Positions 1 through 39,403 of a stretch of 45,097 bases of DNA are shown piece by piece. The stretch comes from Acidobacteriota bacterium (GTDB lineage: Bacteria > Acidobacteriota > Terriglobia > Bryobacterales > Bryobacteraceae). The stretch lies in NCBI GenBank assembly GCA_016213775.1, contig JACQZR010000205.1:1-45097 (forward strand), written 5' to 3'. Each line of letters begins with the position of its first letter. Positions within the stretch are counted from its first letter, which is position 1. The translations under genes were made by a program, and so were the position numbers. The notes under the pieces were generated by a model. That model saw only the letters and a program-made list of their open reading frames with translations, had not been told where the DNA came from and did no database searches.

Positions 1-1966
1 CGGCGATAGCGCGGCCGAAAGGGGCGGCGACGGCGACGGCGAAGCCGCGCCCTTCCATCTTGACTCCGACGGGTTCGTTGGCTTCGGCTGCGATCTTCAC
101 GCAGGCTCCGCACAGGATGCATTTGCCAGGTTCGTAGATGATGTCGGGGTGGGAATCGTCCTGTGCAAAGCGGCGGCGGGCTCCGGCGAAGTGGTAGGGA
201 TCGGCGGCGTATTCCGCGGAGAGGGTGCGGATGCGGCAGCAATCGGATTTGCGGCAACCACAACTCATGCAGCGGCGGGACTCGCGTTGGGCTTCCTCTT
301 CGTTGAGGCCGAGCTCGATTTCATCGAAGGTTGTCAGGCGCTGGTGGTGCGGGATTTCGGCCATGCGAACGCGGGCGGCGTTCTCAATCGAGCGGAAAAC
401 TTCGGCACGCTCGGCGTCGTCGATGGGGCGGAAGGCGATGTCGTGCATTTCGGGCTCGCCAGTGACGGGAACGCCTGTGAGGAACTGATGGATGGAAGCG
501 GCGGCGACGCGTCCGGCGGCCACCGCGCGTACGGCGAGGTCGGCGCCGAGGACCGCGTCGCCTCCTGCGAAAACACCGGCAATGTTGGTGGCGAGGGTGT
601 GGGGATCGGCTGCGATGCCCCAGCCGCTGACCCGGATGCCTTCCTTTTCGGCGAGGTCCCGTTCCACGGATTGACCGGTGGCGGCGATCACCGTGCTGCA
701 CTCAAGGGTGAATTCTGAACCGGGGATAGCGACGGGGCGGCGGCGTCCGCTCTTGTCGGGTTCACCCAGTTGCATGCGCTGGCAGGTGAGTTGCAGGCCG
801 CCGGGGGCGGCTTGTTCCAGACGTATCGGGGCGACGAGGAAGTCCATTTGGACGCCTTCGGTTTCGGCGCCTTCTACTTCTTCCATGAGGCAGGGCATTT
901 CGCGGCGAGTGCGGCGGTACAGCACGCGGACGCGTGCGCCGTTCAAACGGGCGGCGGTACGGGCGCAGTCCATCGCTGTGTTGCCGCCGCCAATGACGAC
1001 GACATCAGAACCGAGTTCGGGTGGGTTGCCTTTGGCGTTCAGGGCGAGGAACTCGATGCCTCGTAGGGCGAGGTCTTCTCCCTCGCCTCCGAGTCCCTGG
1101 GCGTGTTGCGCGCCGATGGCGATGAAGACGGCGTCGTGGGAGGTGCGCAGATCGGCGAGAGTGAAGTCTTGTCCCCAGCAGGTGTTCATGCGGAACTGCG
1201 CGCCGAGCAGACGGATGATGTCGATTTCGGCGTCGAGGGCGTCCTTAGGGAGGCGATAAGCGGGGATGCCATACCGAAGCATGCCGCCGGGATGCTCGGC
1301 GGCGTCGTAGAGGGTGCAGGCGTGGCCGTTCTGGAGGAGGAAGAACGCGGCGGAGATGCCGGCTGGGCCCGCTCCAATGATGGCGACGCTTTTTCCGCTG
1401 GAGGGCGGACGCTGCGGCGTGTAGCGATGGCGGCCCTTCCAATCGAGATCGGCGGGATAGCGGTGGAGGGCACCGATGGCGAGGCCCTGATCGTGCTCGC
1501 AGCGGCGGCACTCCTGCTCGCAAAGGCGCGGGCAGACACGGCCGAGGGAGCCGGGGAGGGCCAGTTTGCGATTGATGATCTCGAGGGAGCGGCGGTAATC
1601 CTGGGAGGCGATTTCGTAGACGAAGCCGGGGATATCAAGCCCGGCGGGACAGCGCGCAGCGCACGGGGCGACGCATTCTCCGGCGTGATCGGAGAGCAGG
1701 AGTTCGATGGCGAGTTTGCGTGCTTTGGTGACGTCGGCGGTGCGGGTATGGACCACCATGCCTTCGGAGACAGGCATGGCGCAGGATGGGGAAAGGGTTC
1801 GGCGGCCCTCGATTTGCACGGCGCAAATGAAGCAGGAAGAGGAGGGTTCGAGGCCATCGACGTGACAGAGCGTGGGGATGCGGATTCCGGCGCCTTTGGC
1901 TGCCTCGAGGATGGTGGTGCCGTCCGGGACGGCGACTGTGCGGGAGTCGATGGTGAGGGTGATCAT
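1..1966 (-). CDS. NuoG/GltD-like FAD-dependent iron-sulfur oxidoreductase (C-terminus cut by window edge)
   Basis: The protein begins with a plant-type [2Fe-2S] domain as in NuoG and FeFe-hydrogenases (Cys34, Cys45, Cys48, Cys62). A GltD-like Fe-S region follows (Cys98, Cys102, Cys106, then a CPRLCEQEC motif). Next comes a two-dinucleotide oxidoreductase part with GAGPAGIS for FAD and IGGGNTAMD for NAD(P). Near the left edge there are more Cys motifs (CMSCGCRKSDCC and CILCGAC), and the frame is still open at base 1, so the C-terminus is missing. Its ATG overlaps the stop of the NuoF-like gene by 4 bases. GltD-like subunits pass electrons between NAD(P)H and ferredoxin-type carriers. I infer it is the soluble flavin module of the redox complex encoded upstream. 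It could instead serve a formate dehydrogenase or hydrogenase lying beyond the window. Confidence 0.85.
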   Translation of the reverse strand, partial: MITLTIDSRTVAVPDGTTILEAAKGAGIRIPTLCHVDGLEPSSSCFICAVQIEGRRTLSPSCAMPVSEGMVVHTRTADVTKARKLAIELLLSDHAGECVAPCAARCPAGLDIPGFVYEIASQDYRRSLEIINRKLALPGSLGRVCPRLCEQECRRCEHDQGLAIGALHRYPADLDWKGRHRYTPQRPPSSGKSVAIIGAGPAGISAAFFLLQNGHACTLYDAAEHPGGMLRYGIPAYRLPKDALDAEIDIIRLLGAQFRMNTCWGQDFTLADLRTSHDAVFIAIGAQHAQGLGGEGEDLALRGIEFLALNAKGNPPELGSDVVVIGGGNTAMDCARTAARLNGARVRVLYRRTRREMPCLMEEVEGAETEGVQMDFLVAPIRLEQAAPGGLQLTCQRMQLGEPDKSGRRRPVAIPGSEFTLECSTVIAATGQSVERDLAEKEGIRVSGWGIAADPHTLATNIAGVFAGGDAVLGADLAVRAVAAGRVAAASIHQFLTGVPVTGEPEMHDIAFRPIDDAERAEVFRSIENAARVRMAEIPHHQRLTTFDEIELGLNEEEAQRESRRCMSCGCRKSDCCRIRTLSAEYAADPYHFAGARRRFAQDDSHPDIIYEPGKCILCGACVKIAAEANEPVGVKMEGRGFAVAVAAPFGRAIA

Positions 1967-3717
1967 GGGGACACCACCTCGATGGCGTCGTCCTTGCAGA
2001 CCTGATAGCACATGTCGCAACGCGTGCATTTGGCAGTGTCGATCGAGTGGACCTTGTACGGCGTGTAGGCGATGGCGCCCACGGGGCAGATTTGCGCGCA
2101 TAGAGTGCACCCGATGCAGTTGGGTTTCACCTGATAGCGGATGAGGGCCGAGCAGCGCCCGGCAGGGCAGCGGCCCTGCATGTGGGCGTCGTACTCTTCA
2201 CGAAAGTAACGGAGCGTGGTGGCAACTGGGTTGGGGGCGGTCTGGCCGAGTCCACAGAGAGAGCCGCGGCCGACGTAATCAACGAGCAGTTCGAGTTTTT
2301 CGATGTCGTCCTTGTGGGCGGTCCCCGCGCAAAGGCGTTCGAGAATCTCGAGCATACGCTTGGTGCCGACGCGGCAGAAGGTGCACTTGCCGCAGGATTC
2401 GGCCTGGGTGAAGCGGAGGAAGAAGCGGGCGATGTCAACCATGCAGTCGCGGTCATCGAGGACCACCATTCCCCCGGAGCCCATGATTGCGCCGGTTTGG
2501 GAGAGGGCATCGTAGTCGATTGGGGTATCGGCGAGAGCGGCGGGGATGCAGCCGCCGGAGGGCCCGCCCATCTGGACAGCTTTGAACTGCCGGCCGTTCT
2601 TGATACCTCCGCCGATCTGCTCAACGATTTCCCGGATGGTGATGCCCATGGGGACTTCAATGAGACCGCCGCGCGCGATCTTCCCCGCGAGGGCGAAGAC
2701 CTTGGTGCCTTTACTGGTGGCGGTGCCGTAGGCGGCGAAGGCGGGAGCACCGTGACGGAGGATCCAGGGCACGCAGGCCAGCGTTTCGACGTTGTTGATG
2801 AGTGTCGGCTGACCCCGGAAGCCGCTCTCGGCAGGGTAGGGGGGACGGAGGCGAGGCATGCCGCGCTGGCCTTCCAGGGAGAGGATGAGGGCGGTTTCTT
2901 CGCCGCATACGAACGCGCCTGCGCCTTCGCGGACCTGGACTCTGAACCCGTGCAGGTGCCCGCCTGCCTCGGCTGCCTGGATGGCGGCGCGGATGTGCCG
3001 GACGGCCTGTGGGTACTCGGCGCGGACGTAAAAGAAACCTTCGCTGGCGCCGATGGCGTAGGCGGCAATGGCGAGACCTTCGAGCACGCGGTGGGGATCG
3101 GATTCCAGGACGAGCCGGTCCATGAACGCGCCGGGGTCCCCTTCGTCACCGTTGCAGACGACGAATTTTTGTGCCGCCTTCTGCGCCCGGGTGAGCGCCC
3201 ACTTGCGGCCAGTGAGGAAGCCTGCTCCGCCGCGTCCGCGCAGCCCGGATTCCGTGATCTCACGGATGACTTCGTCGGGCGTGAGCTGGGTGAGGCAGTG
3301 TTCGAGGGCGCGGTAGCCCCCGCAGGCGAGGTAGTCGTCGATGCGGAGGGGATCGACTTCTCCGCAGTTCTCCAGCACGATGCGTTTCTGTTTGGCGAGG
3401 TAGGGACCGTTGTTGGGGACGGGTTCGGGCGGCTCGCTGGTGTTGACGAGCTTACGGAAGAAACGGAAGGGGAGGTGTTGATCGACGATGTCGCGGGCGG
3501 TGTCGGGAGTGACGTTACCGTAGATATGCTTTTGGCCGCCGGAGATAACTTCGACCAGGGGTTCGCAGTGGCACATCCCGTTGCAGCCGACCGTTTTGAC
3601 GATGCCTTCAGCGCCTGCCCGGCGCGCGGCTTCGAGCAAGGCTTCGCGCACCGGTTCAGCGCCACTGGCGACGCCGCAGGAGCCGAGGCCGATTCTGATC
3701 TCGACGGCCGCGGTCAT
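1963..3717 (-). CDS. NuoF/HndC-like NADH-binding flavoprotein with C-terminal ferredoxin domain
   Basis: This is a 584-residue NADH dehydrogenase/hydrogenase diaphorase subunit. An N-terminal thioredoxin-like [2Fe-2S] domain carries Cys14, Cys45, Cys49 and Cys51. The NuoF core follows, with the FMN/NADH glycine motif GRGGAGF at about 161-167 and GDEGDPGAFMDR near 190-201. A [4Fe-4S] motif ESCGKCTFCRVGT comes next, and a C-terminal 2[4Fe-4S] ferredoxin (CIGCTLCAQICP and CTRCDMCYQVC) ends the protein. This order matches HndC/HydB subunits of NAD(P)-linked hydrogenases rather than respiratory NuoF, which lacks the C-terminal ferredoxin. The start was chosen at the ATG that overlaps the NuoE-like stop by 4 bases; reading further upstream in frame only enters antisense sequence. 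It probably oxidises or reduces NAD(P)H at FMN and exchanges electrons with the neighbouring Fe-S proteins. Confidence 0.9.
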   Translation of the reverse strand: MTAAVEIRIGLGSCGVASGAEPVREALLEAARRAGAEGIVKTVGCNGMCHCEPLVEVISGGQKHIYGNVTPDTARDIVDQHLPFRFFRKLVNTSEPPEPVPNNGPYLAKQKRIVLENCGEVDPLRIDDYLACGGYRALEHCLTQLTPDEVIREITESGLRGRGGAGFLTGRKWALTRAQKAAQKFVVCNGDEGDPGAFMDRLVLESDPHRVLEGLAIAAYAIGASEGFFYVRAEYPQAVRHIRAAIQAAEAGGHLHGFRVQVREGAGAFVCGEETALILSLEGQRGMPRLRPPYPAESGFRGQPTLINNVETLACVPWILRHGAPAFAAYGTATSKGTKVFALAGKIARGGLIEVPMGITIREIVEQIGGGIKNGRQFKAVQMGGPSGGCIPAALADTPIDYDALSQTGAIMGSGGMVVLDDRDCMVDIARFFLRFTQAESCGKCTFCRVGTKRMLEILERLCAGTAHKDDIEKLELLVDYVGRGSLCGLGQTAPNPVATTLRYFREEYDAHMQGRCPAGRCSALIRYQVKPNCIGCTLCAQICPVGAIAYTPYKVHSIDTAKCTRCDMCYQVCKDDAIEVVSP

Positions 3718-4559
3718 GTTTTCTCCGTCACGCTGTCGAGGGCTTCGCTGGCCGCGGCGGGCGTGAGTTTGCCGGCCGTCTGTTCGTCCACCATGATCAC
3801 CGGGGCGAGCGAGCAGCAGCCGAGGCAGGCGACCTCTTCGAGGGTGAACACCTTTTGCGGGTCGGTATCGGCGCCGTCCGGAATATCCAGGTGGCGCCGG
3901 AGTTCGTCGGTGACGGCGCGGGCCCCAGCGACGTGGCAGGCCGTGCCGTGACAGACGCGGACCATATGATCGCCTACTGGGGTGCGCCGGAAGCGGGAGT
4001 AAAACGAGGCGACGCCTGCGATTTGTGAGGCGGTGATTTCGGTGGTTTCGGTGACGCGGCGAAGGGCTTCGCCGGGGAGGTATCGCCAATGGGCCTGGAT
4101 GGCCTGGAGGATGGGGATGGCGGCTTCCGGCGTGCGGCCTTCGCGGGCGATGATGGCGTCGACAACTTCGGGGATGGGGGCTCCGTTTTGCGCGGCGGCT
4201 TTGATGGGTTTGAGTTTGAGTGGGGAGGCAACGCCGGATTTGACGGCCTCGATACGTTTCAGGGCGACGGCTGGCTTAGGCTGCTGCGCGGATTTCCTGC
4301 CGGCCGTGTAGAGGAAAGCCGCGGCGGATGCGATCAGGAGGATGGAGACCCAGCGAATACGGGCTTTGCGGGCGAGCCGCTCTTTGGTCATCGTGTCCTG
4401 GAGCGCGGCGAGTTCCTTGGAGAATTTGTGGTCGTCGCGGGCTTGCTCCTGAAGGACAGTGACTCGTTTGTCGTCGCGAGTTTTGTGAAGGCGCGCGATG
4501 GTGTAGTCGACCGTGAGGAAGGCGGCACAGAGGGCAATTATGGCGAGGGCGAGTTTCAT
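3714..4559 (-). CDS. NuoE-like [2Fe-2S] subunit with N-terminal membrane anchor
   Basis: The C-terminal half (about residues 125-275) is a NuoE/HndA-type thioredoxin-like [2Fe-2S] domain. Its ligands follow the C-x4-C and C-x3-C pattern (Cys203, Cys208, Cys245, Cys249). The first 95 residues are not part of NuoE. They show a hydrophobic segment at about 2-17, a charged helical stretch at 22-68 and a second hydrophobic segment at about 70-87, then a basic linker. The subunit therefore appears tethered to the membrane, which is unusual for a protein that is normally soluble. Both ends overlap neighbouring genes by ATGA, so it should be translated together with the NapH-like and NuoF-like proteins. 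I infer that the anchor holds the NuoEF diaphorase on the membrane Fe-S protein. Confidence 0.87.
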   Translation of the reverse strand: MKLALAIIALCAAFLTVDYTIARLHKTRDDKRVTVLQEQARDDHKFSKELAALQDTMTKERLARKARIRWVSILLIASAAAFLYTAGRKSAQQPKPAVALKRIEAVKSGVASPLKLKPIKAAAQNGAPIPEVVDAIIAREGRTPEAAIPILQAIQAHWRYLPGEALRRVTETTEITASQIAGVASFYSRFRRTPVGDHMVRVCHGTACHVAGARAVTDELRRHLDIPDGADTDPQKVFTLEEVACLGCCSLAPVIMVDEQTAGKLTPAAASEALDSVTEKT

Positions 4560-5515
4560 CTCGGCGCTCCGATTTGAACCAACGCTGCCTCGTTGGTACG
4601 CGGGCAGGAGCTGTAGCAGCGGGCACAGTAGAGGCAGTCCTTACGGATAGCGCGCATTTTGTCGATTGCGCCGTAGGGGCAGGCTTCGGTGCAAAGGCCG
4701 CAGTCGAGTTCTTTGTCGGGAGTTATCGTGACGCCGCGTTTGGAGAGGCGCGAGGCCCAGGCGAGCAGACCGCCGTACGGGCAGAGGTAACGGCAGTAGG
4801 GGCGTCCGACGAACATTCCGACGATGAGGAAAGCCGCGCCGACGTAGAGCATGTGGGCGAAGCCGTCGCGGCGGAAGAAACCGACGAAGGGATCGAAGCG
4901 GCAGATGAGGAATTCGCGGGCGGCGAACGGTTGTATCGCTTGCCAGATGGCAATGCCGAGGTAGGCGTATTTCAGAAGGCCGAGGGCTTGGTCGAGGCGG
5001 CGCGGGACTTGGATAGGTTTGAGGACGACGAGTTCCTGCATCGCGCCGAGAGCACAGACTCCGCCACAAAACGCCCGGCCGTAGAACATCGCCACGCCAA
5101 TGGGGAGGAAGAAGGTCGCGGTGACAACGATAGGGATGGAATAATGCGGATCAGTGAGGGCGACGGCAACGTTCTGGATGGAGCCAACCGGGCAGATGCA
5201 GCCTTCGCGATAAAAGCCGAAGTAGGCGAGCGATCCGATAGTGAGGAATTGCGCCCACCGGCGGCTGCGCTTGGAGATAACCAGCCAGACGGAGAGTCCA
5301 AGCGCTAGTGCGAGGACGCCAACATCGAGGACCTGGAGCCATTGCCGGCGCGGGAGCGGCTTCTGCACTTCCGGGACGGAGTAGCCTCCGCCGATGGTCT
5401 GGGGTTGGGGGGCCGTATCCACCGGCCGCTCGTATCGGACTTGGGCGTAGCTGTAGCCCAGACCCGCGAGCATCAGGAACAGGAGAAGGAGCAGGCGTCG
5501 GGCGGGCTCCGTCAT
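4556..5515 (-). CDS. NapH/NosR-type polytopic membrane protein with 4Fe-4S domain
   Basis: This 319-residue protein has a signal-like N-terminal hydrophobic segment, then several membrane segments (about 61-80, 125-145, 180-195, 222-237). Cys pairs of the NapH/NosR/CcoG type lie between or beside them (Cys106/Cys108, Cys150/Cys154, Cys241/Cys245). A C-terminal ferredoxin domain follows. Its first motif is reduced (Cys272, Cys275, Cys279), and the second is complete (Cys294, Cys297, Cys300, Cys304). Members of this family move electrons between the quinone pool or cytoplasmic carriers and periplasmic Fe-S or heme proteins. Here it lies between a Tat-type ferredoxin gene and the NuoE/NuoF genes with 4-base overlaps on both sides. 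The natural reading is a conduit between cytoplasmic NAD(P)H chemistry and an exported ferredoxin, which is an inference from gene order. Confidence 0.85.
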   Translation of the reverse strand: MTEPARRLLLLLFLMLAGLGYSYAQVRYERPVDTAPQPQTIGGGYSVPEVQKPLPRRQWLQVLDVGVLALALGLSVWLVISKRSRRWAQFLTIGSLAYFGFYREGCICPVGSIQNVAVALTDPHYSIPIVVTATFFLPIGVAMFYGRAFCGGVCALGAMQELVVLKPIQVPRRLDQALGLLKYAYLGIAIWQAIQPFAAREFLICRFDPFVGFFRRDGFAHMLYVGAAFLIVGMFVGRPYCRYLCPYGGLLAWASRLSKRGVTITPDKELDCGLCTEACPYGAIDKMRAIRKDCLYCARCYSSCPRTNEAALVQIGAPR

Positions 5516-12319: not shown

Positions 12320-12997
<678 letters not shown>

Positions 12998-13000
12998 TGA

Positions 13001-14899
13001 TTATGCCTTTGCTGCCGAGGGCAGCCACAGAGTGAACGTGGTGCCTTCGCCCTTTTTGCTGGCCAAGGTGATTTCGCCGCCGTGCGCGGCAACGATGTGG
13101 CGCACCATGGCGAGGCCAACGCCGGAACCTTTGGCATTGCTGGTGCTGGCGGCGCTGCCGCGAACGAACTTGCGGAAGATGGCTTTCTTTTCCGAGTCGG
13201 CGATGCCGAGGCCATGGTCCTTGACCGCAATGGTGACGCGACGGTCCTTCACGCCGCAATCGACCCAGACGGTGGGCTGATCGGGCGAGTATTTGACGGC
13301 GTTGTCGAGCAGGTTGCGGAGGGCGACGGTGAGGGCTTCGGGGTCGGCGTCGATCCAGCAAGGCGCGCCGGGGTCGAGCACTTCGACGTGGCGTCCGGTG
13401 CCGGCGATTTGCTGTTCGAAGTCGGTGACGACACGGCGGACGAGGGCAGCAGCGTCGAGCTCCTGAAAGTGATATTTGCGGGCGCCCGCTTCCATGCGGC
13501 CGAATTGGAGCAGGGCCTCGACGACACGTTGGAGGCGAGTGGTCTCCTTGACCATCATTTCGTAGTAAAGATGGCGGCGTTCTTCCGATGGGGCGCGGCC
13601 GAGCAACAGGATCTCGGAGAGCTGGCGCATGGTGGTGAGCGGCGAGCGGAACTCGTGGGAGACGGCGGAGACGAAGTCGGATTGCATGCGGAGCAGTTCG
13701 GCTTCGCGATGGATGGCGCGGGCGATGAAGAGGGTTCCGAGGACGAGGAAGAGCACCATGATGAAAATGCCGAGTAGGAGGAAGCGCTGCTGCACGGCGG
13801 ATTCGGCGCGGCTGACGGGTTCGGCGGAGACGTAGAGGGTCCAGGGGAGTCGGGTTTCCGCGGCGGTGCGGACGACGGCGCGGCTCCTGGCGATGCGGTC
13901 GCCCGCGAGGGTGCGGCCTTCGGGATCGACCAAGGCATAGTGTATGCCCGGCGGAACAGCCTGGCGAGCGATGACTTCCGGTGGCGCGATGAGCACCGCG
14001 CGGCTGTCGGCGGCGCCGCGCCAGAGGAGGAAGTAGGGTTGTCCGCCGGCCCAGATGGTTTCCTGACCGCGGACATCGGAATTGCGGGAGCGGGTTTCCC
14101 AGAGATGGTTGGCGACTTCAGAGAGGACGGCGGCTTCGGTAGGAGGTGGGTCGGACTTCTTGGCGAGGCGGCCGGATTCTGCCCAGTAGAAATGAAACTG
14201 GCCGCGGGTGAGGTGCCAGCGGCCGTTGGCAAGCTCCTGGCGAATGGACTCGGCCTGCGCGGGGGAGGCGGCGAGGACCGCGGATTCCATTCGACCCAGC
14301 AATTCGGCGGGGACTCCGGCGACACGGACACCTGGGATTGCGGCGAGCCGGACGTAGACGGACTTGCTGCCGTCTGCGTGGCCGGCGGTGCGGAGTATGC
14401 GCGCCATTCGAAGTAAGGCGCCGGCGCGGATGGCGGGATTGGGAGAAGCGGCGAGGCGCTCGTATCCGTGCAAGGCTTCAGTGGGTTGCGATTGGGCGAA
14501 CTCGAACATTTCGGCTTCGGCGAAGACCTTGGCGTCGGCCTCCGGTTCTGAGGACGGGAAGGGATAGTAGAGCAGGCGTCCGGAGGGAGTGACGGTCAGG
14601 GTGTCGTCGCGCATCATGAGCAGGACGCCGTTCGGGATCCGCGGAGGAGCGATCTCCGTGGCCTGCCAGACGCCGAGCTTTTCGGCTGTTTCAGCCAAGG
14701 CGCTCCGGACGGAAGCGGTGAGGCGGTCGGCTTCCTGTTCCATGCGTTCCTGGGTGCGTTGCGTTTCGACAAGGCGTTCCTGTTCGAGGAGCCGCCAGCC
14801 GAACCAGCCGAGGGCGCAGACAGAGACGAGAGTGAGGAGGTAGAGGGACACCAGCAGGGTTCTCGGAGGCTTGAGCCAAGGCGCCAAGGCCGGTATCAC
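13001..14899 (-). CDS. membrane sensor histidine kinase with large helical periplasmic domain
   Basis: This 632-residue protein has a membrane segment near residues 13-35, an extracytoplasmic region to about 372 and a second membrane segment at about 373-395. HisKA follows with no obvious HAMP domain (phospho-His about 415 in VSHEFRSPL), then HATPase_c (NLLDNAVKYSPD, DHGLGIA, GSGVGLAMV). The sensor region contains TPR-like helices (RAGALLRMARILRTAGHAD, SKSVYVRLAAIPG) and a beta-rich membrane-proximal part. The protein is a paralogue of the kinase at 36816-38732 across its full length, including the odd sensor. It is the first gene of its operon and probably senses something through interaction with a secreted TPR protein. 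Confidence 0.93.
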   Translation of the reverse strand: MIPALAPWLKPPRTLLVSLYLLTLVSVCALGWFGWRLLEQERLVETQRTQERMEQEADRLTASVRSALAETAEKLGVWQATEIAPPRIPNGVLLMMRDDTLTVTPSGRLLYYPFPSSEPEADAKVFAEAEMFEFAQSQPTEALHGYERLAASPNPAIRAGALLRMARILRTAGHADGSKSVYVRLAAIPGVRVAGVPAELLGRMESAVLAASPAQAESIRQELANGRWHLTRGQFHFYWAESGRLAKKSDPPPTEAAVLSEVANHLWETRSRNSDVRGQETIWAGGQPYFLLWRGAADSRAVLIAPPEVIARQAVPPGIHYALVDPEGRTLAGDRIARSRAVVRTAAETRLPWTLYVSAEPVSRAESAVQQRFLLLGIFIMVLFLVLGTLFIARAIHREAELLRMQSDFVSAVSHEFRSPLTTMRQLSEILLLGRAPSEERRHLYYEMMVKETTRLQRVVEALLQFGRMEAGARKYHFQELDAAALVRRVVTDFEQQIAGTGRHVEVLDPGAPCWIDADPEALTVALRNLLDNAVKYSPDQPTVWVDCGVKDRRVTIAVKDHGLGIADSEKKAIFRKFVRGSAASTSNAKGSGVGLAMVRHIVAAHGGEITLASKKGEGTTFTLWLPSAAKA

Positions 14900-31746: not shown

Positions 31747-33855
31747 TCATTTGATCTGTCTTAACCCTTCCATCATGCGGGAAATCCACTTTTCTCCGTC
31801 GCCACCAAATCCCACGCTTTCCAACCGTATGTTCCCAACGGTGTCTACGATCCAGCTTCGGGGAAGACTCCAGGCGGGCTCGATCTCCTCCACCAATTCT
31901 CTTGCCAGCAGCACCGGAAACGACAGGTTCAGTTGCTTCATCAACGGCTCGATCAATCCCGGATTGTCATCCATGTTCAACGTCACCACTGCCACATCGC
32001 TACGGCCTTTCACGCTTTCGATCAGTTTTTCCAGGTGAGGCAACTCCTCACGACATGGCTTTCACCAGGACGCCCATACGGCCAGGAAGGTTGTCTTTCC
32101 CTTCAGCTCCGCCTGGGTCCATTTCTTTCCCTGGATGTCGATGACGTCGAATTTCGGCAGCGGCTTGTCGAGCTTGGTCCATTGGGGACCGCCAGATGGA
32201 GCTGGCGCGGAACGAGTGGGCATGCCGCCGACTCGCCAGGCCATCCAGGCCTCGCCGGTACCCCCAAGCGCCAGCCAGATTTCCCGAAGCTTCGTGGTCA
32301 TTTTTTCCCGGCCTTCTTTGTTGGCCTCTGGCATACTCGCCAGTAGCTTGCCGTACCAGGCGAGAGCGTCGAGTTTCCGATTCTCCTTCTCGGCCAGTTC
32401 CCCCATTCGCCGCGAGTGAGTCCGTTCGTTCCCCGCATAGGCCGTCTTATGCCATACCGGGGCCGAATCGGCGGGCTTGTTGGCGGCCAGGAGGTCACGC
32501 ATACTTGCCAACGGAGCCCCCGCGGCAGACGGCATGTCCGACCGAATCGCAGCCTCGGCCCACGCGTTCCAGGCGTTGAAACGCCATTGCCGGCGGCTGA
32601 ACTGCATGTCGTCCGCGGAGCTCTTGGATTGCGGGTACAGATCGCTCATCACGGGTGGTTGATCCAACTCCGTCAACCCTTGCTTCACCAGTTCCGGGAC
32701 ACGGTCCAGCCGGACGCCGTTCTGTACGTAAGTCTGCGCTACACGAATCTGAACGGGCATCTCCCAGGCGGAGCCAGGCCGGGTTGCCTTCAGGGCCAGC
32801 AGTTTGTCGCACGTGGCTTCTATCTCCGCTGCCGGGACATCGGCCACCACTCCCATCGCGCCGAGGCGCAGCGAGTAGATGGCAGGCTCTTCCGGCCATT
32901 TTGCCATCCACTCGTTACTGGCTCGCAGCAGGGCCCGGTTATATTCTTGTCTTTTTTCTAGCGGGTCTCCCTGCTTGGGAAAGGGGTGGTTCTTATGGAA
33001 ATCACTCTGCGCTCGGTAGAACGCCAAGGCAGCGCGTTCCTCCAGTTGCGTGGCCTCGTCCGATTTGCCGATGAGCTTGTAGCCAGACGCCAGAACAAAG
33101 GGAAAAGCATCCTCGCTGAAAGCTTTTGAGCGTTTTATGCGCTCGATGTCCGCTTCCACGCGTTTGCGCAACGCGGCATGCCCGGCTGGTGGTGCTAATT
33201 TAAACTCCATCCTCCACAGCGAGCCGTAAGCCCAGATCGCCTGCCGGTCCGACCGCCCTTCCAGCATCGTCCGAAGGCGCACCGCGCTCGTCTCCACGAA
33301 TGGCGAGCGGTCCATCCCGCTGATCCGGCCGTATGCGCTCAACGACTCGGGACATAGCCGGACGAATTCCTCCAGCGCATGACGCTGTTTCTCCTTGTCA
33401 CGGAAGTTCCGGTATTCGTAAATCTCTCCTAATAGAAGATGCGGGTGGGCGAACTGCGGGGCCTTCTCGATGGCCAGGCTCAACTTCGCGATGGCCTCAG
33501 GAGTGTTCCTGCCCACCAGCACCCGCGCATAGTAGTAGAGGCGGAGTGGGTCGTCCGGCCGCTGCTCGAGCAATTCCCGGTATTCGGCGATTCCATGGTC
33601 CCGCTCCCAGTCGATGCTGGGCAAGAGACTGGCATGGGCCTGCCGTACGAAGAAGTCGCCGTGATGCTTTTTGAGAAGGGCCGTGAGGCCGGCAAGCCGC
33701 CGCTGAAGGCGGTCCTCGTAGGAAGTTGCCTCCTGGCCAGTGACGGCCTCCAAAGCTTCCCGGATCCCGGGAGTTGCGTCGCAAGGGTAAGTGGTTTGCG
33801 CCCGCGCCAGTGGCACGAGTGCGTGGATCAACAGACAGGCCAACACTGTGCGCAT
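31747..33855 (-). CDS. secreted TPR protein with C-terminal TlpA-like thioredoxin domain; candidate selenoprotein
   Basis: Read through one in-frame TGA (32062-32064) this is a 702-residue protein. It has a signal peptide (RTVLACLLIHALVPLARAQ), a helical TPR region to about 560 and a TlpA/AhpC-like thioredoxin domain (FDVIDIQGKKWTQAELKGK, FLAVWASW, then the TGA codon 598, then KPCREELPHL). The cis-Pro segment SLPRSWIVDTVG follows near residue 670. TGA occupies exactly the first Cys position of the WCxxC redox motif, and the frame stays open for 104 codons of good thioredoxin sequence. This fits selenocysteine (U-x2-C) better than random decay, and a hairpin follows the TGA. An ordinary annotation would split the gene into 32062-33855 and 31747-32043. 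AGGAGGTG lies 5 bases before the ATG. It follows the M16 peptidase gene by 17 bases. Confidence 0.75.
32031..32058 (-). promoter_or_regulatory. candidate bacterial SECIS hairpin
   Basis: Starting 3 bases after the in-frame TGA, the minus strand can form an outer CCA/TGG clamp and a perfect 6-base-pair stem GTGAGG with CCTCAC around a 5-base loop AGTTG. The loop begins 16 bases after the TGA and has a G in its first two positions, in line with the known bacterial SECIS pattern of a short stem-loop within about 16-37 bases of UGA. Confidence 0.5.
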
Positions 33856-33872: not shown

Positions 33873-36599
33873 TTACTTCTGAAATACCCCGGCCCTGCGA
33901 AAGTCCCCCGCCTTCACAATGGACATCGCTTTGGGATCGATGTGGCGGCGGAACGCCTCACTCACTTGCTCCGCAGTGAGCGCTCCGATCTTCTTTTCCA
34001 ATTCCGCGTCCCAGGCCAATGTGCGGCCGTCCTCCTCGCGGCTTACTAGAGTGGAGACCAATCCTTCATCGCTGGAGAGAGAAACCCGGCGGTTTTGCAG
34101 CCAGGCTTTCTGGGCGGTTGCCACCTCCCCGGCGGTAAATCCGGCCCGGCGCGTGCGCGCCAGCTCATCCAGAAAGCTGGCTTCCACCTTGGGAGTATTT
34201 TGCGGAGCGCTGATGGCGAATCCCGAGAACACCGCCCGGTCGCCTTCCGTCATCGCCCAGAAAAAACTGCCGACACTGTAGCTCAGTCCCTCCTTTGTCC
34301 GGATGCGCTGGAACAGCGCATTGCGGAAGATGTCGTTGGCCAGAACCACGGCAGGATAGTCGGGGTGGCTATCGTTCATCTGAATGAGCGTCTGCAACTG
34401 GAAATACGCGTTCTGCTTGTCGGCCGTCACCAGAGCGAGGTTCACTGCCTCCCGCCTGGCATACGGGGCCAGCACCTTCTGGTAGCGCGCGTCGTTCTTC
34501 CAATCGCCGAAGAGCTCGTTCGCAGCTGCTCGCACAGCCGCCGGATCGAACTGTCCTGCCACCACCAACACGTCATTCGCCGCCCCGTTGATTCCCCAGA
34601 AGCGTTGATAGAACTCACGGACCTGACCGAGAGTCACTCTACGCGTGTCTTCGATTGCTTCGTCGATCGTGCTGATGTAACGGATGTCGCCGCGCGGGTT
34701 GGGATTCATGTGCCGGTTGAGGGCTTGGAAGGCCATGGATGCAGGCTCCAGGCGCGTCTGTTCCAACTGCGCGATGTGTTCCCGGCGCAGTTGCTCGAAC
34801 TCAGCCTCGGGGAATGCAGGCACCCTCAGGATTTCCGCTACCAGCCGGAGCGTATTGATGAGGTTGCCTTCAATGGTCGTGATCGGAACCTGGGCTCCGA
34901 CAGCGCCTCCCTGCACGTTGACGAACGCCTTAAGACGGTCCATCTCCTCTTGGATCCGCTGACGCGACTTGTTCTTCGTCCCCCGCATGAGCATGCCCGC
35001 CAGCAATTGACCAGCCTTTTGGCGTCCGAAGAGCGACTCTTCGTCGCCGACGCGTAAGGAGAAGCGGGCTGTCACCGCCGCGCCGCGAGTCTTCTTCGGT
35101 AGAAGCACGATTCTCAACCCGTTGGGCAGCCTGGACCGCTCGACTCGCGATTCGATGTTCGCCGGGGACGGGTCGAACGATTCCCCCTGTGAAACAACCG
35201 CGCCGCCCTTGTAGCCCTTCATACTCGACGCCAAATCCCGAACGGTTGGGATCTCGGCACGGTCCGGCTCGGCGGTTGGGAGGTAGACTCCGACTGTGCG
35301 GTTGGACTCCTTCAGGTACGCCTTGGCGACACGTGCAACGTCCTGCTCGGTGACGTCCCGGATACGGTCGCGGTGGAGGAAAAGGAGACGCCAGTCCCCG
35401 CGGGAGATCCACTCACTGAGCGAGAGTGCGATCTGCTGCGAGTCGTTGAAGGACAGCTCCGTCTGTTTGAGAAGACGGGCCCGCACACGCTCCACTTCCT
35501 GTCGCGTAGGAGGTTCCGACGCCAGCCCCTCGATGACGTGGATCGCTACCTTGCGCGCCTCTTCTACGGATTGGTCCTTACCCAACCGCACGTTCGCCGT
35601 GAGCGAGCCAGGTTGCCGCAACAACTCTACAAAGGACCCTGCCGACACCGCTTTTCCGCTCTCCACCAAGGCCTTGTGCAGACGGCCCGCCGGCGGAATC
35701 CGCAGCACTCCGGATAGTACGTCGAGCGCCGCCGAATCTGCGTGCGCCACCGCAGGAACATGGTACACAAGGAAAAGCGATGGGACGCCGCCGACGCGGC
35801 GCACCTCGACATTTCGTTGCCCGTCCTGCGCCGGTTCCACCGTATACGGGGTCTCGACGTGACGACCGGGACGTGGTATGCTCCCGAACGCCGCCGCCAC
35901 CCAGCCCAGAGTTTTCTCGCCGTCGAATGCGCCGGCAATAGTAAGGACCGCATTGTCGGGCTGGTAATACTTCCGGTAGAAGGCCCTTAAGCGCTCAATC
36001 GGTACGTTCTCGATGTCCGACCGGGCGCCGACGACCCAAGTCCCATACCGGTGCCAGGAGTATGCGGCGCGCATGGTGCGCTGATACAGCACGTTCTCCT
36101 GGTAGTTCTCCCCTCCCTCCCACTCATTTCGCACCACCGTCATCTCCGGATCGAGAATCCCTTTCTCCATCTTCGCGTTCACCATGCGGTCCGCTTCCAG
36201 CCCGATAGCCCATTTGAGGTTCTCCTCATTTGCCGTCAGCGTCTCAAAGTAGTTGGTACGGTCGAACCCCGTGGTGCCGTTCCACGCGGCCCCGTGGTCT
36301 TTGAGTTCCTTTATAATACTGGTCCGTTTAGTGGTCTGGAGGAACAACAAGTGCTCCAGCAGATGCGCCATGCCGTTCTCCCCCGAACCTTCGTGGAGCG
36401 AGCCAACCAGGTACGTCATGTTGACGGTCACCTTTGGCTTCGATGGATCTGGGAATAGGAGAATCCGTAACCCGTTGGATAGGGAGTACTCCGTGATGCC
36501 TTCGACGGAGGTTGTCTTCTGAACGCCGGAGGGAAGAGATTCGCTCCAGGCCAGAGTGGTTATCGACGCAGCCAGAGGCAGCCACATAATTCGCGCCAT
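33873..36599 (-). CDS. secreted M16-family zinc peptidase, fused two-half form
   Basis: This 908-residue protein has a signal peptide (WLPLAASITTLAWSE) and two M16 halves joined by a linker. The first half has the inverted zinc motif HLLEH in ENGMAHLLEHLLF and the downstream Glu region (DPEMTVVRNEWEGG). The second half (about residue 490 on, RLPNGLRIVLLPKKTRGAAVTARFSL in the family pattern) keeps the fold but has GQLLAGMLMRGT in place of the zinc motif, as in inactive partner domains. Acidobacterial members of this pqqL-like group degrade peptides in the periplasm. Its stop is 17 bases before the candidate selenoprotein gene, so both should share a transcript. Confidence 0.92.
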   Translation of the reverse strand: MARIMWLPLAASITTLAWSESLPSGVQKTTSVEGITEYSLSNGLRILLFPDPSKPKVTVNMTYLVGSLHEGSGENGMAHLLEHLLFLQTTKRTSIIKELKDHGAAWNGTTGFDRTNYFETLTANEENLKWAIGLEADRMVNAKMEKGILDPEMTVVRNEWEGGENYQENVLYQRTMRAAYSWHRYGTWVVGARSDIENVPIERLRAFYRKYYQPDNAVLTIAGAFDGEKTLGWVAAAFGSIPRPGRHVETPYTVEPAQDGQRNVEVRRVGGVPSLFLVYHVPAVAHADSAALDVLSGVLRIPPAGRLHKALVESGKAVSAGSFVELLRQPGSLTANVRLGKDQSVEEARKVAIHVIEGLASEPPTRQEVERVRARLLKQTELSFNDSQQIALSLSEWISRGDWRLLFLHRDRIRDVTEQDVARVAKAYLKESNRTVGVYLPTAEPDRAEIPTVRDLASSMKGYKGGAVVSQGESFDPSPANIESRVERSRLPNGLRIVLLPKKTRGAAVTARFSLRVGDEESLFGRQKAGQLLAGMLMRGTKNKSRQRIQEEMDRLKAFVNVQGGAVGAQVPITTIEGNLINTLRLVAEILRVPAFPEAEFEQLRREHIAQLEQTRLEPASMAFQALNRHMNPNPRGDIRYISTIDEAIEDTRRVTLGQVREFYQRFWGINGAANDVLVVAGQFDPAAVRAAANELFGDWKNDARYQKVLAPYARREAVNLALVTADKQNAYFQLQTLIQMNDSHPDYPAVVLANDIFRNALFQRIRTKEGLSYSVGSFFWAMTEGDRAVFSGFAISAPQNTPKVEASFLDELARTRRAGFTAGEVATAQKAWLQNRRVSLSSDEGLVSTLVSREEDGRTLAWDAELEKKIGALTAEQVSEAFRRHIDPKAMSIVKAGDFRRAGVFQK

Positions 36600-36815: not shown

Positions 36816-38732
36816 ATGTGCGAGATGCCCTTGCGGCTTTGGTTCCGGGCCCCACGCCGGGTGCTAACCATGTTCCTGGCGATCACATTGGTCCCGGCGG
36901 CAGCATTGGGGTGGTTGGGCTGGAAGATGCTCCAGCAGGACCGCGAGTTGGAACGGCAGAGAGAGGCCGAAGGACTGGAGTTGCTCGCGGGATTGATTCC
37001 ACCGGCACTGGAGCGCACGCTCGCCGGACTGGAAAAATACCTCGACACGCCTAACGCAAGTCTCCCCGAAGACACAGTCCGGCTGATCGCCGATGGGAAC
37101 AGTTTCGAGGCGCGCCCGGCGGGCCGCCTCCTCTACTATCCTTCCGCCGCCGCGTCAGCGGGACTTTCATCCGCGCGGTTTGCCGAAGCCGAGGAACTGG
37201 AACTACGCCGCAACGACCCAGCCGCCGCCATAGTTGTGCTTGGCAAGGATGTTCAAAGCAGCGATCCCGTCATCCGCGCCGGCGCGCTGCTGCGGCTGGG
37301 CCGCAATGCGAAAAAGCTCGGCCAGGAAGAAGTGGCATTGCGTGCGTATGAGCAACTGGCGGCATTGGGACAGGTACAGGTGGAAGGCCTGCCTGCCGCC
37401 ATGGCTGCCAGAGAGGCCCGTTGCCGGCTCTTTGAAAAGGCAGGCCGTAGCCAGGATCTGATGGCGGAAGCGGCCGCGCTTCATGGTGGGCTGCGCGAAG
37501 GAGAATGGCGCATCGCGCGCGCTACCTGGGAGTTCCACATCGAGGAAGCCGCCCGCTGGATCGCGCCATCCGCGCCACCGCCGCCCGATGCGAGTCGGCT
37601 GGCGCTGGCAGCCGCGGCCGAGTGGATCCACACCTGGTGGCGGGCCCATGGCGATTCCTCTGGTCGCCAGTTCCTCACTTTGGAAGGCCGGCCCGCGCTG
37701 GTGGCGTGGAAAGCGTCCGGCGGAAGGCTTACAGCCGTCGCGGCGGGGCCCCGCACCATTCAGTCCACGCTGAACTCCGTGGTCCACGATCCCGGTTTTT
37801 CCTATGTGCTATCCGATGCCTCGGACGCGGCAATCCTCGGCCAGGCCGAGGTGCATCCGCGACTGCATGTGGTGCGCGTTCCCGCCGACACCGGCCTGCC
37901 GTGGACCTTGCACCTTTCGCGCACAGACCCGCCCTCGCCTTCCGCGCGCGCCGATTTTCTTGCGGCAGGCGGCGCGATTCTTGCAATGCTGTTGCTGGGT
38001 GGCGGTTACCTCGTATTCCGTGCCATCGCGAGGGAGATGGCCGTTGCCCGCCTGCAATCGGATTTCGTCTCGTCGGTCTCGCACGAGTTCCGCAGCCCTC
38101 TCACCTCCATCTGCCAACTCTCCCATTTGCTGGATTCCGGCCGTGTACCGGATGATGGCCAGCGCGGGCGCGTATACAGTACGTTGGTGCGGGAGAGCGA
38201 GCGGCTGCACACGTTAGTGGAGTCACTGCTCGATTTCGGCAAAATGGAAGGCGGCACGTTGCGCTACCGGCTGGATCCGCTTGATGTGGAGCAACTGGTG
38301 GCGGACGTGACGGAGGCATTCCGCGCGCATCCGGGGGCGCAGGGCTACAACATCCACGTGGAGATCAGCGCGGAACTGCCGCACGTCGCCGCCGACCGCG
38401 AGCCGTTGGGCCGGGCCATCTGGAACCTGCTTGACAACGCGGTGAAGTACTCGCCTGAGAGCAGGAACATTTTCGTCACGGTGGCGAGCGCCGGTGAGGA
38501 CGTCACGATTTGCGTGCGCGACGAAGGTGTGGGTATCCCCGCCGAATTGCATGGGGAAATTTTCAAGAAGTTCGTACGCGGCAATCCGCCTCCAAATGTG
38601 AAAGGGACCGGGATCGGGCTGGCCATGGTAGATCATATTGTTCGCGGGCACGGAGGACGAATCCTGCTGGAGAGCCGAGCGGGAAGCGGAAGCACGTTCA
38701 CGATTGCGCTGCCGTGTGGAAGGAACGCATGA
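36816..38732 (+). CDS. membrane sensor histidine kinase, second paralogue
   Basis: This 638-residue protein has the same architecture as the kinase at 13001-14899. A membrane helix lies at about 14-33 (VLTMFLAITLVPAAALGWLGW), followed by an extracytoplasmic region with TPR-like helices (RAGALLRLGRNAKKLGQEEVALRAYEQLAALG) and a membrane-proximal beta domain. A second membrane helix (GGAILAMLLLGGGYLVFRAI) precedes HisKA (His about 423 in VSHEFRSPL) and HATPase_c (NLLDNAVKYSPE, DEGVGIP, GTGIGLAMV). There is no HAMP domain. The first ATG at 36816 is used, though one three codons later is equally possible. Its stop overlaps the regulator start by ATGA. It is divergent from the M16 peptidase gene. 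Confidence 0.93.
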   Translation: MCEMPLRLWFRAPRRVLTMFLAITLVPAAALGWLGWKMLQQDRELERQREAEGLELLAGLIPPALERTLAGLEKYLDTPNASLPEDTVRLIADGNSFEARPAGRLLYYPSAAASAGLSSARFAEAEELELRRNDPAAAIVVLGKDVQSSDPVIRAGALLRLGRNAKKLGQEEVALRAYEQLAALGQVQVEGLPAAMAAREARCRLFEKAGRSQDLMAEAAALHGGLREGEWRIARATWEFHIEEAARWIAPSAPPPPDASRLALAAAAEWIHTWWRAHGDSSGRQFLTLEGRPALVAWKASGGRLTAVAAGPRTIQSTLNSVVHDPGFSYVLSDASDAAILGQAEVHPRLHVVRVPADTGLPWTLHLSRTDPPSPSARADFLAAGGAILAMLLLGGGYLVFRAIAREMAVARLQSDFVSSVSHEFRSPLTSICQLSHLLDSGRVPDDGQRGRVYSTLVRESERLHTLVESLLDFGKMEGGTLRYRLDPLDVEQLVADVTEAFRAHPGAQGYNIHVEISAELPHVAADREPLGRAIWNLLDNAVKYSPESRNIFVTVASAGEDVTICVRDEGVGIPAELHGEIFKKFVRGNPPPNVKGTGIGLAMVDHIVRGHGGRILLESRAGSGSTFTIALPCGRNA

Positions 38733-39403
38733 AGAAGATTCTGGTTGTGGATGACGAGCCTGGCATCGCACTTGGGTTGGAGATCGACCTGCGCACGGAA
38801 GGCTATCAACCCGAAGTGGTGGCGGACGGAATCGAAGCGTTGCGGCGGGCGCGTGAGGAGCCGTTCGATCTGATCCTTCTCGACGTCATGCTGCCCGGGA
38901 AGGACGGCTTCGAAGTGTGCCGTGAGCTGCGCCGTTCGGGAGTGACCACACCGATCATCCTGCTCACCGCGAAGACACACGATGCGGAGAAGGTAATCGG
39001 GCTGGAACTGGGCGCGGACGATTACGTCACGAAGCCGTTCAACCCAATGGAATTGCGTGCGCGGATCAAAGCGGTGCTGCGGCGCGCGCCCCCGGAAACA
39101 CCTGACCTCTGCCGCTTCGGGGATGCCGAGATCGACTTCGCCCGCTGCGAACTGCATCGCGACGGGCAGGCGGTGGAGATCACGCCGATCGAGCTGAAGC
39201 TGCTCACCGTCTTTGTCCGCAGCCGTGGGCGCACGCTCAGCCGCGACCACCTTCTCAATGCCGTGTGGGGCGCGGGAACCTTCGTTAGCCCGCGCGTCGT
39301 CGACAACCACATCGTCGGTCTGCGCCGCAAGATCGAGCCGGAACCCGACTCGCCGCGCTACCTCGTCAATGTCCGCGGCATGGGCTACCGCTTCGATGCA
39401 TGA
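38729..39403 (+). CDS. OmpR/PhoB-family response regulator, second paralogue
   Basis: This 224-residue regulator has receiver Asp8/Asp9, phospho-acceptor Asp52 (LILLDVMLPGKDG), LLTAKT and VTKPF, then a winged-helix DNA-binding domain (ITPIELKLLTVFVRSRGRTLSRD, VDNHIVGLRRKIE, GMGYRF). It overlaps the kinase stop by 4 bases. It is close to the regulator at 12320-12997 in both domains, including the recognition helix region VVDNHI-x-LRRKIEP, so the two regulators may share binding sites. A 15-base palindrome spans its stop codon. Confidence 0.95.
   Translation: MKKILVVDDEPGIALGLEIDLRTEGYQPEVVADGIEALRRAREEPFDLILLDVMLPGKDGFEVCRELRRSGVTTPIILLTAKTHDAEKVIGLELGADDYVTKPFNPMELRARIKAVLRRAPPETPDLCRFGDAEIDFARCELHRDGQAVEITPIELKLLTVFVRSRGRTLSRDHLLNAVWGAGTFVSPRVVDNHIVGLRRKIEPEPDSPRYLVNVRGMGYRFDA

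Follow-up and report, generated by a model that had tools for sequence, protein, structure and literature searches.

An in-frame UGA at the active site of a long TlpA/ResA-like protein of an Acidobacteriota bacterium is probably read as selenocysteine

Does an in-frame TGA at the active site of a thioredoxin-like domain end the protein, or is it read as selenocysteine (Sec)? The question is raised by a gene on the minus strand of the window, the whole stretch of 45,097 nucleotides of contig JACQZR010000205.1 (assembly GCA_016213775.1) that was analysed. Its frame, running from 33855 to 31747, reads FLAVWASW, TGA, KPCREELPHLEKL, and a program-made list of open reading frames stops the gene at 597 residues. 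The first-pass annotation had placed the TGA at the first Cys of a TlpA-like CxxC pair. Re-reading of the frame confirmed this: the TGA is codon 598, at the position of the first Cys of a TlpA/ResA-type CxxC (site WASWUKPC), and beyond it lie 104 codons of intact domain, up to the stop at 31749-31747. The features of the gene are as follows.

31747-33855, minus strand: proposed selenoprotein gene, 702 residues with codon 598 as Sec; stop codon TGA at 31747-31749.
32062-32064, minus strand: in-frame TGA, codon 598, proposed selenocysteine, from the reading of the frame and the recurrence of TGA at this column (14 of 61 distinct family members).
32053-32055, minus strand: Cys601, second residue of the UxxC pair, invariant in alignment A1.
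31861-31863, minus strand: Pro665, at the cis-Pro position of ResA-like proteins, invariant in A1 and aligned with the LP of ResA 4nmu.
33796-33855, minus strand: probable export signal, codons 1-20, MRTVLACLLIHALVPLARAQ, as read by eye.
32230-33771, minus strand: all-helical, TPR-like N-terminal domain, residues 29-542, from the structure model, with a TPR_11 match below cut-off.
31762-32181, minus strand: TlpA/ResA-like thioredoxin-fold domain, residues 559-698, from Pfam, a PDB sequence match to ResA and Foldseek matches to TlpA and ResA.

Pfam matches of the 702-residue read-through product to AhpC-TSA (PF00578; 46.2 bits, cut-off 26), Redoxin (PF08534; 38.2 bits, cut-off 26.6) and Thioredoxin (PF00085; 25.9 bits, cut-off 23.5) all span the TGA, while the NCBIfam equivalogs and subfamilies that it matched all score under their own cut-offs. 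In the structure model (mean pLDDT 82.0, pTM 0.67) helices continue to about residue 542 and the fold is thioredoxin-like from residue 559. ResA 4nmu is the closest solved protein by sequence (E 4.3e-18), and the best PDB fold matches of the C-terminal domain in Foldseek are TlpA 4txv (E 9.9e-7) and ResA 4nmu. U598, C601 and P665 line up with 4nmu and are invariant in A1; the proline equivalent to Pro665 is presumably in the cis state in ResA-like proteins. The long TPR region that had been claimed for the N-terminal part is helical in the model, and 'TPR-like' is fair because the model is all-helical in that region, but support for TPR itself is weaker than first stated, the TPR_11 match of the window protein reaching 18.7 bits against a cut-off of 26.8 and the TPR match of a relative (L120) 24.9 against 25. 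Outside the active site, Cys25 (33781-33783) and Cys168 (33352-33354) are conserved in 53 and 56, respectively, of 57 aligned members (those of the 61 whose site lies at residue 501 or later), so that the N-terminal part may contain a structural disulfide or a redox relay.

For a Sec-x-x-Cys site in such a domain, the likeliest activity would be extracytoplasmic thiol-disulfide exchange, as a reductase or isomerase, with Sec598 as the attacking nucleophile and Cys601 as the resolving residue; the helical N-terminal domain may bind a substrate or client, or partner proteins. A selenoprotein whose chemistry is peroxide reduction instead appears unlikely. The best Pfam match is indeed AhpC-TSA, and weak GSHPx matches are found in two of the three relatives scanned, but ResA and TlpA are nearest among solved proteins by sequence and by fold alike, and the site is UxxC, as against the TxxU listed for peroxiredoxin in PMC13188914. 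Assignment as a Sec-containing peroxiredoxin was accordingly rejected: TxxU is absent and the UxxC is preceded by WASW.

Family members were defined by a BLASTP match at E 1e-40 or better that covers the site, which gave 61 distinct members among the loci retrieved and hence a family of at least 61. At the column of codon 598, 14 of them carry TGA, 40 TGC and seven TGT. The alignment of homologues at this codon, proposed with the first reading as a check, therefore returned both Cys (47 members) and TGA (14, including 13 from other genomes), and the 104 codons downstream proved to be conserved in relatives. The TGA members come from 14 genomes, namely the gene's own, six others of its order and seven elsewhere in the class, and all were reached by protein search, none by a pattern built on the TGA alone. 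Of 257 genomes of the order, 58, counting its own, contain a match when E is limited to 1e-20. From the class 399 genomes were drawn, some again from the order; at an E limit of 1e-35, 26 of them, counting its own, contain a match. Eleven of the 26 come from outside the order, and a single TGA is present in seven of those 11. In a draw of 396 genomes from the phylum, seven genomes other than its own had matches, with no stop inside any match listed; the motif is of the Cys type in five, and two loci yielded no motif by the pattern used. A scan of the contig collection (genome_contigs) with the single protein gave no match; a TGA-specific DNA pattern on the same collection picked up 52 loci, of which 12 belong to the long family. 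For 12 of the 14 TGA members this pattern turned up a named record of the very same gene, among these records Solibacteraceae bacterium SbA3, Bryobacterales palsa_143 and Candidatus Sulfopaludibacter MAG_CO124. Several relatives from the taxonomic family of the window correspond in this way to named Acidobacteriota records, SbA3 for example, which fits the Acidobacteria suggested in the first-pass annotation. Between the window protein and the 11 TGA relatives of A1 identity is no more than 31-36%. In three genomes (G129, G198 and G229) the Sec and Cys forms are both present.

Some in-frame stops were excluded from the 14. In G157 (contig C656) the TGA lies elsewhere, the aligned codon is TGC and the match falls into two frames; in G064 (C181) the stop is a TAG and the aligned codon is AGC; and in G160 (C687, L073) the TGA is at the site but belongs to a separate short TlpA-like gene, with FAAWULPC. 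Serine (AGC) occupies the nucleophile position in L032 (own genome, contig C4, 9943-10359; WSTWSGPC) and L074 (G064; WASWSAPC), both small relatives of the domain.

The relatives of the window protein bear on the possibility that UGA 598 mainly terminates, a 597-residue helical protein being the main product and read-through being rare or selenium-regulated. ORF 1-597 is intact, and termination usually outcompetes Sec insertion when selenium is low; the C-terminal domain is, however, conserved in relatives, and those with Cys make it without any stop, so we regard predominant termination as quite improbable.

If the UGA is recoded as selenocysteine, a signal for SelB would be expected in the RNA, and one candidate lies immediately downstream.

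32035-32051, minus strand: bacterial SECIS-like hairpin GUGAGG-AGUUG-CCUCAC, 6 bp with a 5-nt loop that begins 16 nt after the UGA.

PMC13188914 gives as limits for bacterial SECIS elements (bSECIS) a loop of 3-9 nt, a stem of 4-16 bp and a G in the first two loop positions, the loop lying 16-37 nt from the UGA, and an energy of -7.5 kcal/mol or lower. The 17-nt element of the window falls within all of these, with the 5-nt loop AGUUG, 6 bp, a distance of 16 nt and -7.7 kcal/mol; the 63 nt after the UGA, taken by folding energy alone, do not stand out (z -0.21). The six-pair stem is complete in 13 of the 14 TGA genes (the remaining one has five pairs), as against two of the 47 Cys genes (mean 3.4 pairs), and the 17 nt reach -7.5 kcal/mol or lower in 13/14 TGA genes but in only 1/47 Cys genes. 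With a looser stem search, in which the register was not fixed, six or more pairs are found in eight of the 47 Cys genes and one TGA gene has only four. The codons beneath the stem differ likewise: codon 605 is TTG in 14/14 TGA genes as against 12/47 Cys genes, and codon 606 is CCT in 13/14 as against 7/47.

Across the 13 distinct sequences of alignment A2, pairing holds in 98.7% of cells; double-sided changes occur at two of the six pairs, and the other four never vary. None of 500 shuffles reached the covariation score of 0.179, and none the pairing percentage; 25 reached the count of doubly changed pairs and 221 that of further pair types. These figures are not probabilities because the shuffles ignore relatedness. 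When the partners were slid out of register, pairing was at most 69.2%. Alignment A3 covers 38 of the 40 other TGA loci found by the pattern (L121, too short, and L158, which holds an N, were dropped), the majority of them short TlpA-like genes, and in the register of the window hairpin pairing extends to 94.8% of its cells. It is weaker evidence than A2 because the search pattern fixes some of the stem bases, whereas the 14 genes behind A2 were all found by protein search too.

The genes for Sec decoding named in the first-pass annotation as a check, selA, selB, selC (tRNA-Sec) and selD, were all found in the genome. The tRNA-Sec has the anticodon TCA and scores 77.6 bits, over the family cut-off; the matches are 379.6 bits for selB, 493.9 bits for selA and 349.7 bits for selD, the last with one in-frame TGA. 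This selD (L026, contig C118, 30684-31613) has its TGA in a context read as AGUASK, which we take to be the expected place of SelD's own Sec, and because of this in-frame TGA SelD itself looks like a selenoprotein. Among the 13 other TGA genomes, tRNA-Sec is over cut-off in 12 (the exception being G229) and selB in 12 (the exception being G322), although five of these 12 selB matches (G229, G265, G228, G355 and G346) span only about the first 345-373 of 581 positions; both G229 and G322 are drafts, 80% and 84% complete. A selA match with E of 1e-60 or lower is present in each of the six further TGA genomes from the order, but selA does not single out the TGA carriers, because it is common in the order (over cut-off in 206 of 257 genomes). 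The comparison genomes are mixed: G045, G003 and G046 have neither tRNA-Sec nor selB, G002 has both with no selA match in the search of the order, G160 has both, G157 has selB only, and G055, which has the Cys form, has tRNA-Sec with no selB match.

Bacterial tRNAs other than tRNA-Sec that read UGA have been reported, and related genes have Cys in the column of codon 598, so that a suppressor tRNA might insert Cys, Ser or Trp here, with no use of selenium. We give this very little credence: the genome holds tRNA-Sec over the family cut-off with selA, selB and selD, the TCA-anticodon tRNA that was seen is that same tRNA-Sec, and the SECIS-like hairpin is specific to the TGA members. A nonsense mutation, a pseudogene or an assembly error, with the TGA a real stop or a mistake and the sequence downstream dead or misread, hardly merits consideration even though the contig is from a draft genome (314 contigs, 4.6% contamination) in which an isolated TGA of this kind does exist elsewhere (L038), since chance, which the first-pass annotation had also discounted, is not credible for a TGA found at the exact same column in 14 of 61 distinct members, 13 of them in other genomes, with the downstream domain and hairpin conserved. 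That isolated TGA served as a control. It lies in a TlpA-like gene (L038/L180, contig C27, about 4393-5037) and replaces the Trp just before CxxC (WAT-TGA-CGPC); matches were found in 172 of 237 genomes of the taxonomic family (own included) and, because among the matches listed only its own copy has the TGA, it is probably a mutation or assembly error, to which the window gene would not be comparable.

It would thus seem very likely, from the genomic evidence, that this is a selenoprotein gene in which UGA 598 is recoded as Sec by SelB through the downstream hairpin, encoding an exported TlpA/ResA-like thiol-disulfide oxidoreductase of 702 residues. The selenoprotein reading first put forward is supported by the Sec machinery, the recurrent TGA column and the covarying hairpin. 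SelB with Sec-tRNA would recognise the hairpin just 3' of UGA 598 and selenocysteine would be inserted, giving an exported protein with the Sec-x-x-Cys site in its C-terminal domain.

How far such a protein is new depends on which part of it is considered. Sec use in Acidobacteriota is not, since PMC12013277 lists a genome of this phylum with three known selenoprotein genes. Nor is the UxxC chemistry, which is of a known kind because the 2026 catalogue PMC13188914 includes the UxxC families 'Prx-like thiol:disulfide oxidoreductase' (PF00578) and 'thiol-disulfide isomerase-like protein' (cd02966). The window protein resembles these in its PF00578-type thioredoxin-fold domain with Sec first in UxxC, but differs, as far as the table descriptions of that catalogue go, in about 550 extra N-terminal residues, which are helical. 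The short TlpA-like UxxC genes share the site of the TGA and, for the most part, a hairpin in the same register that overlaps CREELP, but they are similar only to the last ~150 residues of the window protein and most of their frames are of about 150-430 residues. ResA of B. subtilis and B. anthracis and TlpA of Bradyrhizobium share the fold, the CxxC position and the neighbouring sequence with the window domain; they have Cys in place of Sec, are short and lack a helical domain, and the NCBIfam ResA score of the window protein, 69.5, is far under the cut-off of 170. NF041054 (ResA-like WAxxUGC motif-containing protein) has in common a ResA-like domain and a selenoprotein-type motif, but membership was rejected, its motif being UGC as against UxxC here (WASWUKPC) and the match weak (36.4 bits, cut-off 300). 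In the open PMC papers searched, neither the long architecture nor a TlpA-type selenoprotein of Acidobacteriota was found described, and the 700-residue form with its large helical N-terminal domain looks new.

The distribution of Sec and Cys over the family was followed on trees. In a tree of 47 of the 61 members, made with the site masked (L173, L081, L100 and 11 further Cys rows were omitted), 12 of the 14 TGA members fall in one clade together with one Cys member (L167, from G407), and the window gene and L161 lie outside it. The Sec/Cys label needs four changes on this tree, three of them forced by strong branches, and a single TGA clade is rejected (p-AU 6.3e-36); on a quick tree of 60 members (all but L173) three changes are needed. 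Old Sec with later replacement by Cys fits, because the window gene and L161 share an identical 17-nt hairpin; repeated gain is another possibility. For the Cys form of G407, replacement after loss of Sec decoding fits, since tRNA-Sec was not detected there (none at E 1e-8; the selB match, 228.5 bits, is under cut-off), although this is one case only. More speculatively, the DNA encoding CREELP in TlpA-like domains may fold so easily into a minimal bSECIS (GNGNGG-AGUUG-CC...) that these proteins are poised for a Cys-to-Sec swap; within the helical-TlpA family, exchange in both directions would have recurred several times over the class as Sec decoding was gained and lost, and in other phyla the TlpA families would have acquired this 17-nt element by convergence or by inheritance. 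We put this forward tentatively, as a possible but rather doubtful scheme.

Beyond the family, the loci found by the TGA-specific pattern (L109-L160, less the 12 family members) comprise 40 TlpA-like TGA loci, most with the same AGUU-loop hairpin, and 23 of the 40 are records titled Rokubacteria or Rokuibacteriota. L127 (Planctomycetota, 1059 residues) and L134 (Acidobacteria, 817 residues) are long frames with UGPC TlpA-like C-termini that resemble the query only in the TlpA-like domain; L134 forms two of the six pairs in the hairpin register. In the window, an M16-type peptidase gene (33873-36599) lies 17 nt upstream of the selenoprotein gene; a tblastn search for this peptidase in 19 loci of TGA members (3-8 kb each, several of them duplicates) gave nothing significant, the sole match having E 2.7. 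By eye, the minus strand of 1-4559 holds what look like genes for NuoE/NuoF-type subunits and for a GltD-like protein with an N-terminal ferredoxin-like part, running off the start of the window. In the ORF list, again by eye, a sensor kinase gene is paired with a response regulator gene at 12320-14899 and in much the same way at 36816-39403.

Standard ORF calling ends this gene at codon 597, and with that its catalytic domain is lost. Read through, the gene would add to the proteins that use selenocysteine one whose large N-terminal domain is helical and of the partner-binding type. With the Sec and Cys forms of one large enzyme side by side in three genomes, the question of why Sec is kept becomes directly testable.
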